This document shows positions 15,602 to 19,357 of a DNA stretch of 64,000 nucleotides, in pieces (positions within the stretch are counted from its first letter, which is position 1; each line of letters starts with the position of its first letter). The notes beneath the pieces are model-generated. The model did no database searches. It was not told the origin of the DNA and was given only the letters and a program-made list of their open reading frames with translations. Origin of the DNA: an uncultured Acidimicrobiaceae bacterium. GTDB lineage: Bacteria > Actinomycetota > Acidimicrobiia > Acidimicrobiales > Ilumatobacteraceae. The stretch is taken from positions 1-64,000 of the forward strand of contig CAIXIJ010000008.1 in the NCBI GenBank assembly GCA_903919455.1, given 5' to 3'. The translations under genes and the position numbers were made by a program.

Positions 15602-16711
15602 TCAGGCGAAGCGGTACCGGAGTTGGTCGCCGCTCTCGTCAACCGTGGCTTCGCCGGTGAGGCGTAAGTGTTCGAGGTGGGCGTACGTCTCACTCTCGGC
15701 CATGGAACCCCACGACCGCTCCTGGAACAGCACCTGCATGTACTCGTGCACGGTGCCGCTGCCGAGCTCGCCGCTGGCGGTGCGCAGCGTGTCGAGGCGT
15801 TCGAGGTGGTGACGTTCGATGGCGGTAGCCCGACCGGACAGGTCGGTGAACTCGAGGCCGTGCGCGGGCAGCACCGTGCGCACGCTGTCGAAGGTCTTCA
15901 TCAGTTCGAGACTGTCGAAGAAGTCCTTCAGCGGGTCGACCGTCGTTCCCAACCCTGAGATGTGCGGGGTGATGGTGGGTAGCACGTGGTCGCCGCTGAT
16001 CATCACGCCGCCCGCGGGGTCGTAGAGGCAGAGGTGGTCGATCGTGTGACCGGGGGTATGGACGGCCACCCACTCGCGACCACCGAGTTCCATCACCTGC
16101 GCGTCCTCCACTCGCCGGGTGGGGGTGGGCGTGGTGACGAAACGACCCGCGGCCTTGCGCATCGCCCAGTAGCGCAGCCGACGAGAGCGTGGCATCGAGT
16201 AGGGATCGCCACCCCACGGTGTGTGCTTGGCGAAGGGTCCACGCCGCAGGTCCTCGCCCTGTAGTGACTCGATCTGGGCCTTCACCGGCCGGTCGATCAC
16301 TTCCAGTTCGTCGGCGCTCTCCTGATCCTCTGCCTCCGGGTCGAGGAAGGTGCGGAACGCCTTGTGGGTGATCACCTCGGCACCAAAGCGCTTGCGGAAC
16401 TGGCCGGCCTGCCCGAAGTGATCGGGGTGGGAGTGGGTGACCACCACCGAGTGGACGCGTTCGATGGCGAGACCACCGGTCTTCATGATCCGCTGCAGTT
16501 CCCGCCATGTCTTCGGGCCAGGCAGTCCCGGATCGACGAGCGTGATCCCTCGGCTGTCCTCCATCGCGTAACAGTTCACATGGCCGAGACCCGGCAGCGA
16601 GATTGGCAGCTGCAAGCGAAGGATCCCCGGCGCGACCTCCTCTACGCCCTCACGCGGAGGCTGCCGCTCTTCGCGGACAGGCTTCGGTGCGGCATGGTCG
16701 TGGTCGGTCAC
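15602..16711 (-). CDS. MBL fold metallo-hydrolase
   Basis: VVTHSHPDHFGQAGQF metallo-beta-lactamase motif; VHTPGHTIDHLCLY. Confidence 0.9.
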   Translation of the reverse strand: MTDHDHAAPKPVREERQPPREGVEEVAPGILRLQLPISLPGLGHVNCYAMEDSRGITLVDPGLPGPKTWRELQRIMKTGGLAIERVHSVVVTHSHPDHFGQAGQFRKRFGAEVITHKAFRTFLDPEAEDQESADELEVIDRPVKAQIESLQGEDLRRGPFAKHTPWGGDPYSMPRSRRLRYWAMRKAAGRFVTTPTPTRRVEDAQVMELGGREWVAVHTPGHTIDHLCLYDPAGGVMISGDHVLPTITPHISGLGTTVDPLKDFFDSLELMKTFDSVRTVLPAHGLEFTDLSGRATAIERHHLERLDTLRTASGELGSGTVHEYMQVLFQERSWGSMAESETYAHLEHLRLTGEATVDESGDQLRYRFA

Positions 16712-16804
16712 CCCTTCGTCCTAGCGGAGCAGCAGGCCGAGGCGGAAGTCGCACGGGCTGGAGTCGCGGTCAGTTGGCCGGCGACAGGAACCTCGATTTC
16801 CTTG

Positions 16805-16834
16805 TTGACAATCGAACACATGTTCGATTACCAT
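16805..16834 (+). promoter_or_regulatory. promoter with embedded LexA/SOS-box-like operator
   Basis: TTGACA(16805-16810)-ATCGAACACATGTTCGAT(16811-16828)-TACCAT(16829-16834); spacer is a perfect 8+2+8 palindrome containing GAACACATGTTC. Confidence 0.7.
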
Positions 16835-16840
16835 GTCCCC

Positions 16841-18100
16841 ATGGACCCGGCACTCGTCGATTTCGAGGCCGCTGCAACGGCAGCTGTCGGCCTCGGACGG
16901 CAGTTGCTCCCCGCTGCCACCGATCACCGGCGGCTCCGTGCAGCCATCCTCGCGGTCCATTCGGCTTCCGATCAGTTGAAGGTGGTCGAGGCCGAGCTGC
17001 TCGCTGCTGCCGAAGCACTCGAGGCCTGGGCGGGCACCGGGGCCAGGAACATGGCCGACTGGTTGGCCGGGAAGACGAACTCGTCGTACGGCGACGCGAA
17101 GCGGAAGACGAAGCTCGGTTCCGCGTTGGGGAAGAACAAGAAGTTGAAGGATGCGGTCGATGCTGGCGAGGTGTCGCCCGACACGGCCGAGCAGTTGGCG
17201 GGCACCATCAACGAACCACCCAAGGGTGCCGACGACCACCACCTCGACGATCTCGTCGATGCGTGCAAGGGCGCCTCGCCGAAGGACGCTCGCGATGCGG
17301 CGAACCTGTTCTCCACCACCTTCACTCCCGAAACCGATGAGGAAGCGGCAGATCGGCGCCATCAGGCGCGGTCGTTGAACTTCGGGCCCTCCGACGACGG
17401 CATGGTCGCCATCAAAGGTCTGCTGCCGGCTGCGAGCGCCGACCAGGTGAAGAAGAGCCTGTTGCACGCGGCCAGCGCGGGCGAGGGCGACACGCGCACC
17501 ATCGAGCAGCGGCTCGCCGACGGGCTCACCAACCTGGCCACCGCCTACGCGAAGGGTGAAGTGTCGGGCGGACGCGAGGCGCCGCAGATGAACATCACGA
17601 TGAGCGAAGCATCGCGCCGCGGCCACTCCAACGAGCCCGCGGTCACCGATCTCGGCACGCGCATCCCACCGTTCGAGGCCCGCCGCCTCGCCGAACTGGC
17701 CGAGATCCGCCGCATCGTGATGGCCGGTTCCGAGATCATCGACCTCGGTCGCAGCTACCGCTACGCCACCGACAAGCAGTATCAGGCACTCTTCGCTCGC
17801 GACCGCGGCTGCGTGTGGCCCGGCTGCAACATTCCCGCCGCATGGTGCCATGCCGACCACATCGTGGAGTGGGGGCACGGCGGCACCACCGATCTGAACC
17901 AGATGGCACTGCTGTGCCCGCACCATCACACCGAACGTCACCGACCCGGGGTGTGGATCGAAGGCAATGCCATTACGTGGCGACTTCACCTCGCCGATGG
18001 CACCATCCTGCACCGACGGCCCATCCGGCAGCCCGACCAATCCGACCTCTTCGAGCAGATGCTCGACCACACGGGGCCACCAGGGTCGGCGGCGGCCTGA
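16841..18100 (+). CDS. DUF222/HNH endonuclease signature protein (13E12-like)
   Basis: C-terminal HNH: RDRGCVWPGCNIPAAWCHADHIVEWGHGGTTDLNQMALLCPHHH; start 16841 chosen from promoter geometry (alternative ATG 16820). Confidence 0.88.
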   Translation: MDPALVDFEAAATAAVGLGRQLLPAATDHRRLRAAILAVHSASDQLKVVEAELLAAAEALEAWAGTGARNMADWLAGKTNSSYGDAKRKTKLGSALGKNKKLKDAVDAGEVSPDTAEQLAGTINEPPKGADDHHLDDLVDACKGASPKDARDAANLFSTTFTPETDEEAADRRHQARSLNFGPSDDGMVAIKGLLPAASADQVKKSLLHAASAGEGDTRTIEQRLADGLTNLATAYAKGEVSGGREAPQMNITMSEASRRGHSNEPAVTDLGTRIPPFEARRLAELAEIRRIVMAGSEIIDLGRSYRYATDKQYQALFARDRGCVWPGCNIPAAWCHADHIVEWGHGGTTDLNQMALLCPHHHTERHRPGVWIEGNAITWRLHLADGTILHRRPIRQPDQSDLFEQMLDHTGPPGSAAA

Positions 18101-18199: not shown

Positions 18200-18920
18200 T
18201 GAGGCGGGGCGACGACGCCGGGAGGTCACCAACGCGCCGGCGCCGAGCATCAGCACCACCGCACCCGCAGCAACGAACGGCGTTGCGTTCCGACCGGTCG
18301 ACAGCAGCTCCGGAGCAACGGCCACCACGACCGCAACGACCGCAACGACCGCAACGACCACCGATGCCGGCTCGGCAGCGGTAGTGCTCTGGAACGCGTG
18401 CCCCTGAACAAGCGACGACACGGTGCTCGATGCCGAACCGTCGGCGCCGGCACTGCCCGCAGCGCCGGCACTGCCCCCAGCGCCGGCCCCACCAGCCAGC
18501 CAGAGCATCGTCCGCGACGCACCGCACGCAACTGCAGGAACCGTTCGAACACCCAGTCGTCGTGCGCGCACGCAATCTGTCCCGTTCGTCCAACTCGACT
18601 CATACATCACACACCACGCCGCACGTTCCGGCGCGGAGCGGTGGCGGATGTCGATGAACGCACGCGCTGGCGCGGTGATGACTACCTCCGGCGCTGCAAC
18701 CTCGGGCATCGCTGCGCCGTGGCTGTCGATCGCGAACACCTCGCCGTCGACACGGATCTCGTATCGCTCGTCGACGCCGACAGACGCCACCGTGTCGCGG
18801 TAGGAGAGCAGCGCGCCGCGCACGGCGAGCATCGGGCGCACTGCATCATCGGAAGCCGGTGGTTCGAGGAGCGGCATGCCGAAGCGCACCAGTGCCCTGA
18901 GCACCGGAAGGGCGCGGCCA
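18200..18920 (-). pseudogene. possible decayed gene remnants (HTH-regulator/SCP2-like C-terminus and LPxTG-like tail fragment)
   Basis: Minus-strand open frame contains MLAVRGALLSYRDTVASVGVDERYEIRVDGEVFAIDSHG… and ELLSTGRNATPFVAAGAVVLMLGAGALVTSRRRRPA, with no coherent start or full-length domain. Confidence 0.3.
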
Positions 18921-18930
18921 TCCGGCACGT

Positions 18931-19122
18931 TTCGGACCCACGGGTCCGTTTCGTGCCATCCATGGCGCTGTGCCATCCATGGCGCTGTGCCACCCGTGGG
19001 TCCGGGATGCGCCACTTGCGGCAGAAGGTTTCTGCGCCCACGGGCGCGACTTCTCCTACGTGTGGGACATTGCCCGCCCGTGGGCGCGAAGCGACCCGGA
19101 TTAGGAAGGTTTCGCGCCCAAC
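18931..19122. repeat. 40-bp-period intergenic palindromic array, copy 3 (with variant cores)
   Basis: Cores GGACCCACGGGTCC (18940), CACCCGTGGGTCC (18996), TGCGCCCACGGGCGCG (19040), CGCCCGTGGGCGCG (19080), TTTCGCGCCCAAC (19120). Confidence 0.8.
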
Positions 19123-19283
19123 TCCACGTCAGGCCGGAGAACGTCGAAGGCCCGGACCTTGCGATCCGGGCCTTCATTTCGTGGCGGGGGCAGGAACCGT
19201 CGCTCGCTGCGCTCGCTCCTCCCAAATCCGTGCGCGCCACCAATGCGAACGGCCGGCCCTTGCGGGCCGGCCATTTCATTTAG

Positions 19284-19357
<74 letters not shown>

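Follow-up and report, generated by a model that had tools for sequence, protein, structure and literature searches.

The DUF222-HNH gene and its promoter

The DNA analysed here (the window) is a stretch of 64,000 nucleotides from a host genome of 3.55 Mb in 150 contigs, referred to as G000. An open reading frame on its plus strand, at 16841-18100, encodes a protein of 419 amino acids. Two domains are found in the frame that starts at ATG 16841: a DUF222 domain at residues 40-321 (16958-17803, plus strand; PF02720, E 6.7e-22), a stretch also returned by the genome search, and an HNH nuclease domain with its conserved Cys and His residues at residues 329-367 (17825-17941, plus strand; PF01844, E 1.1e-4). 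The divergent gene for a metallo-beta-lactamase (MBL)-fold protein on the minus strand (15602-16711) is a neighbour that does not belong to the system. A tRNA-Met (CAT) lies on the minus strand (19283-19357), about 1.2 kb past the end of the DUF222 gene.

Among 45 relatives of the protein, H340 and G348 are invariant, and C324, C329, C359, H362, and H363 are nearly so; the dN/dS ratio among five copies is 0.07-0.11. The copies have been kept functional, as the conservation of Cys and His in the HNH domain and the low dN/dS show. By this measure, the DUF222-HNH proteins are under purifying selection, and the window gene probably encodes a DNA-cutting enzyme. An AlphaFold model of the protein (pLDDT 87) has an N-terminal part that weakly resembles ParB/Noc DNA-binding domains (Foldseek probability up to 0.99, E 0.16 or worse); a Foldseek search with the model gave no match below E 0.05, and the ParB/Noc likeness is a lead only. 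The window protein matched no family in PADLOC or NCBIfam.

Read directly, positions 16805-16845 consist of TTGACA, ATCGAACACATGTTCGAT, TACCAT, GTCCCC, and ATGGA. The -35 hexamer TTGACA (16805-16810) and the -10 hexamer TACCAT (16829-16834), both on the plus strand, are separated by an 18-bp spacer (16811-16828), which is filled by a predicted LexA operator, the unstranded SOS box TCGAAC-ACAT-GTTCGA (16812-16827). Six bases separate the -10 hexamer from ATG 16841; transcription is predicted from this gap to start at the first base of the start codon (16841, plus strand). Four paralogues (L017, L018, L019, and L022) have TTGACA or a close variant at the equivalent position, and the -10 hexamers found in paralogues are TACCAT, TACAAT, TATCAT, and TATAAT. 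The window contains a single exact TCGAACN4GTTCGA, the 16-mer TCGAACACATGTTCGA at 16812-16827, where first-order simulations of the window composition predict 0.003 per 64 kb, and the composite of -35, box, and -10 did not occur once in 300 simulations. The palindrome and the composite promoter are not expected by chance.

The original prediction, made from the letters of the window, had identified both the DUF222-HNH gene and this promoter anatomy, and in these respects it holds. It was wrong to describe the 18-bp spacer as a perfect palindrome: the 7-bp arms ATCGAAC and GTTCGAT are exact inverses, while the central pair is C/A, so that eight of nine pairs match.

Predicted recognition of the operator by the host LexA

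Does the LexA protein of this organism read the motif? The host genome encodes a single LexA, with one match to the LexA DNA-binding domain (LexA_DNA_bind, PF01726) and an S24 peptidase domain. The region upstream of lexA carries an array of about six boxes of the window type, one of them with a GTACG half; a CGTAC half also occurs among the LexA sites listed for Streptomyces venezuelae, TCGTACGTACGTTC and TCGAACGTCCGTAC, and is thus a genuine variant (PMC9380542). Across the 3.55 Mb there are 20 sites with the strict motif CGAACN4GTTCG, compared with one for the reversed control. Seven of the 20 are at DUF222 genes, and the remainder include lexA, recA, uvrB, a dnaE2-like polymerase gene, imuA', and a DEDD/GIY-YIG nuclease gene. 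The possibility that the host LexA recognises a different motif is contradicted by the window motif at lexA, recA, uvrB, the dnaE2-like gene, and imuA'. Judged by the genes that it marks, the motif is the one that the host LexA reads. It is true that the ArsR motif of E. coli resembles the mycobacterial SOS box (PMC8151990), yet an operator for another dimeric regulator of, for example, the ArsR type is a very improbable reading of a motif that marks lexA, recA, uvrB, the dnaE2-like polymerase gene, and imuA', which together are a LexA target set.

In Mycobacterium tuberculosis, the SOS box is TCGAAC-N4-GTTCGA (PMC4181829). The 13E12 genes Rv0515, Rv1702c, Rv3074, and Rv3776 belong to the LexA regulon (PMC5005354), as the original prediction had stated for mycobacterial 13E12/DUF222 HNH genes, and the induction of five HNH genes by mitomycin C depends on RecA (PMC8151990). 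LexA control of 13E12/DUF222 genes is already known in M. tuberculosis, and the window gene adds a member from another class of the phylum. It shares with the M. tuberculosis genes the protein family, the SOS box, and the multicopy state, but its host belongs to a different actinobacterial class (a relative is named Acidimicrobiaceae in NCBI). The placement of the box also differs: in the window it fills the spacer and is followed by a 6-nt gap between the -10 and the start, whereas in the mycobacteria-like genome G048 most of the copies seen have the box over the start codon. The reading of the window gene as controlled by LexA and DNA damage is supported at the level of sequence by the lexA box array, the standard SOS genes, and the sister DUF222 genes, which share the motif.

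Two promoter types among the copies in the host genome

The Pfam profile finds 11 DUF222 genes in G000, and a wider profile gives 20 matches including fragments. The 5' end is readable in 16 DUF222-type genes. Inspection of these genes for the same embedded operator, a check that the original prediction had proposed, found a LexA box in the promoters of nine (seven strict; those on C59 and C137 with one mismatch each). The other seven (C29, C45:50270, C45:98763, C63, C72, C83, and C141) have a different promoter, TGTCAcACCCC-N-TANNNT, followed by ATG 6-7 nt on; the C72 promoter reads TGTGACACC, and the -10 is CATGAT in C63 and C72. This second motif occurs at 16 sites in G000, against none for the control, and the sites include recA, radA, the tmRNA gene, a PD-(D/E)XK nuclease gene, and an RNase_T exonuclease gene.

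In M. tuberculosis, the PafBC motif (PafBC/RecA-NDp) is TGTC(GG/AG/AC)-N10-TANNNT (PMC8151990), and the second promoter of G000 fits it in sequence. A PafC protein (HTH_PafC, E 7e-29) is encoded in G000 next to a second WYL protein. Near-matches to the PafBC motif are carried by the seven DUF222-type genes, recA, radA, and the tmRNA gene, but not by the window promoter, which is of the LexA type only. The tmRNA gene (L288; G000:C138:1-238), truncated by the contig end (Rfam, E 4e-11), starts just 3' of its PafBC-type promoter; this arrangement would place ssrA under DNA-damage control in this lineage. Two near-identical DUF222 copies, L283 (G000:C45:98763) and L287 (G000:C83:960), have a common in-frame TGA just before the HNH part, after which the frame runs on into HNH.

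Probable dispersal of promoter and gene

The DUF222-type genes of G000 are multicopy and dispersed, with unrelated flanks. Copies are about 80-93% identical in DNA. In most pairs the homology sets in at the -35 hexamer or slightly ahead of it, at -35 to -43 relative to the start codon, and it ends near the stop codon, between about 150 nt upstream and 14 nt downstream of it. A similar pattern is found in the closed genome G030, where 20 copies are alike in promoter and gene and unlike in their flanks. In five relatives from the same genus, the neighbouring MBL gene is present without DUF222; the homology ends at 16755-16772, ahead of the DUF222 gene, and the flanks diverge beyond. The restriction of homology to the stretch from promoter to stop, the unrelated flanks, and the occurrence of the neighbour gene without DUF222 in five relatives suggest that the DUF222 genes were dispersed as a unit of promoter and gene.

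A clean empty site was not found for the window copy, where G013 matches to 16772 via the neighbour gene and then only in a dispersed repeat, nor for the C56 copy, where G003 has the downstream flank without the DUF222 gene and a different left flank. Dispersed G+C-rich repeats (e.g., TTTCGGACCCACGGGTCCGTTTCGTGCCATCCATGG) lie at 18913-19121 of the window and recur as numerous partial copies in G000 and G013; one repeat lies at the break of synteny with G013. There is no sign of recent carriage by phages or plasmids, because the one phage match is weak (18% of the window protein covered) and the five plasmid matches are distant and partial.

REP13E12 is the attachment site of the serine-integrase prophage phiRv1. 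Two DUF222-HNH paralogues in G000 (L343, G000:C137:21850-27830; L344, G000:C45:98790-112853) are cut by serine-recombinase elements at the HNH codons for Asn-Leu, whereas the window copy is intact. The ends of the cut share AACCTCGT in C137; in C45 the sequence is CAACCT. Beside each cut lies a serine recombinase gene, and the 3' portion of the split paralogue follows 4.8 kb (C137) and about 13 kb (C45) further on, a layout that resembles phiRv1 in REP13E12.

Promoters of DUF222 genes across the phylum

The sample of DUF222 genes draws on 15 genomes from the genus, 60 from the class, and 61 from the phylum, with some genomes in more than one set, and the upstream DNA of 195 non-duplicate genes was read. 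Strict boxes are enriched 169-fold in front of these genes: 94 in 64 kb of upstream DNA, against five in 578 kb of other DNA from these loci. If a single mismatch is allowed, a box is present at 131 of the 195 genes, and a further 20 have the PafBC motif only. Damage wiring of DUF222 genes is common and not universal, since strict criteria find neither motif in 44 of the 195, among them all six copies examined in G043. Because most of the gene's relatives throughout the actinobacteria are damage-wired, through LexA or the second switch, the predicted wiring is a property of the DUF222 gene family and not of the single site in the window.

Two types of LexA promoter were assigned by their anatomy. 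Type A, to which the window gene belongs, comprises 38 genes in seven families (27 of the 38 promoters belong to f1, the family of the window gene, which makes the sample non-independent, and the box is inherited by any cassette that moves together with its promoter). The box lies inside a spacer of 17-18 bp in 36 of them, and the start codon is 6-8 nt past the -10 in 32 of 38. The conserved short gap is consistent with a leaderless mRNA for the window gene. Could transcription begin further upstream, or translation at the in-frame ATG within the box (16820-16822, plus strand)? The frame upstream of 16841 is open, and gaps of 20-44 nt occur in some spacer-type promoters. However, this ATG lies upstream of the predicted transcription start and is probably unused; its position moves with spacer length, in frame at the 18 bp of the window and out of frame in the 17-bp paralogues L017, L018, and L019. 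Together with the gap of 6-8 nt in most spacer-type promoters, this makes a transcript with a leader improbable.

In type B (54 genes in 14 families, with the reservation that 20 of the 54 are from G030), the -10 directly adjoins the box, which contains the start codon, as in TATAAT-CGAACATATGTTCG. A PafBC motif is found directly upstream in 29 of the 54. At L069 and L070 (both G014:C36), L061, and L091, the SOS box is perfect (CGAACATGAGTTCG or CGAACATGGGTTCG), and the start codon falls within its four-base centre. Some mycobacterial genes bear both RecA-NDp and SOS elements (review, PMC8223512). In the papers searched, neither the placement of a LexA box over the start codon nor a phylum-wide wiring of DUF222 genes to LexA and PafBC was found.

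A proposed mechanism

The window element is very probably a housekeeping-sigma promoter that is repressed by LexA and that, upon damage, yields a leaderless mRNA for the DUF222-HNH nuclease. In this scheme, a LexA dimer on the SOS box at 16812-16827 would sit between the -35 and the -10 and block RNA polymerase. Upon DNA damage, RecA filaments would trigger the self-cleavage of LexA, and the box would be freed. The promoter would then give rise to an mRNA that begins with the A of ATG 16841, from which the nuclease is translated.

A competing idea is that the DUF222-HNH protein has the palindrome as its own DNA target, for self-repression or as a homing site, and that the palindrome resembles the SOS box by convergence; the start of homology between copies at the box-bearing promoter and the weak ParB/Noc likeness of the model are compatible with it, but it is scarcely credible given that genes with no relation to DUF222 carry the box as well and that seven DUF222-type genes in G000 use a different, box-free damage promoter.

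For type B, LexA would occupy the start point and activation would depend on PafBC, so both damage signals may be required. This leads to a broader and distinctly speculative proposal: DUF222-HNH genes might form a phylum-wide family of damage-triggered cassettes in which promoter and gene travel together, one branch using a LexA operator in the spacer and another an AND gate made of a PafBC promoter and a LexA operator at the start codon. If such a gate exists, both damage pathways would be needed before a risky nuclease is made.

What might the nuclease do?

The favoured role, held tentatively, is that of a dispersed and probably selfish nuclease cassette with its own damage switch. Alternatively, the induced protein might be a DNA-repair nuclease of the host, neither selfish nor toxic. 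This would agree with the low dN/dS, with the control shared with recA, uvrB, imuA', and radA, and with the proposal that 13E12 HNH genes are part of a LexA-controlled mismatch-repair system (PMC4181829). However, copy number ranges from 1 to 15 within the genus, the copies have promoter and gene in common and not their flanks, and the MBL locus exists in five relatives without the DUF222 gene; a host repair role is somewhat unlikely. A damage-triggered suicide or defence role for the nuclease is less likely again.

The selfish-cassette reading and its alternatives concern a large family. Among the nuclease genes of actinobacteria that await characterisation, those for DUF222-HNH proteins are some of the more numerous, and one genome has as many as 22 matches. 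Judged by their motifs, most of the sampled genes answer to either of two DNA-damage regulators, and this opens a direct route to the function of the family. The combination of a start-codon LexA operator with a PafBC promoter is a candidate for a two-signal damage gate in compact form.
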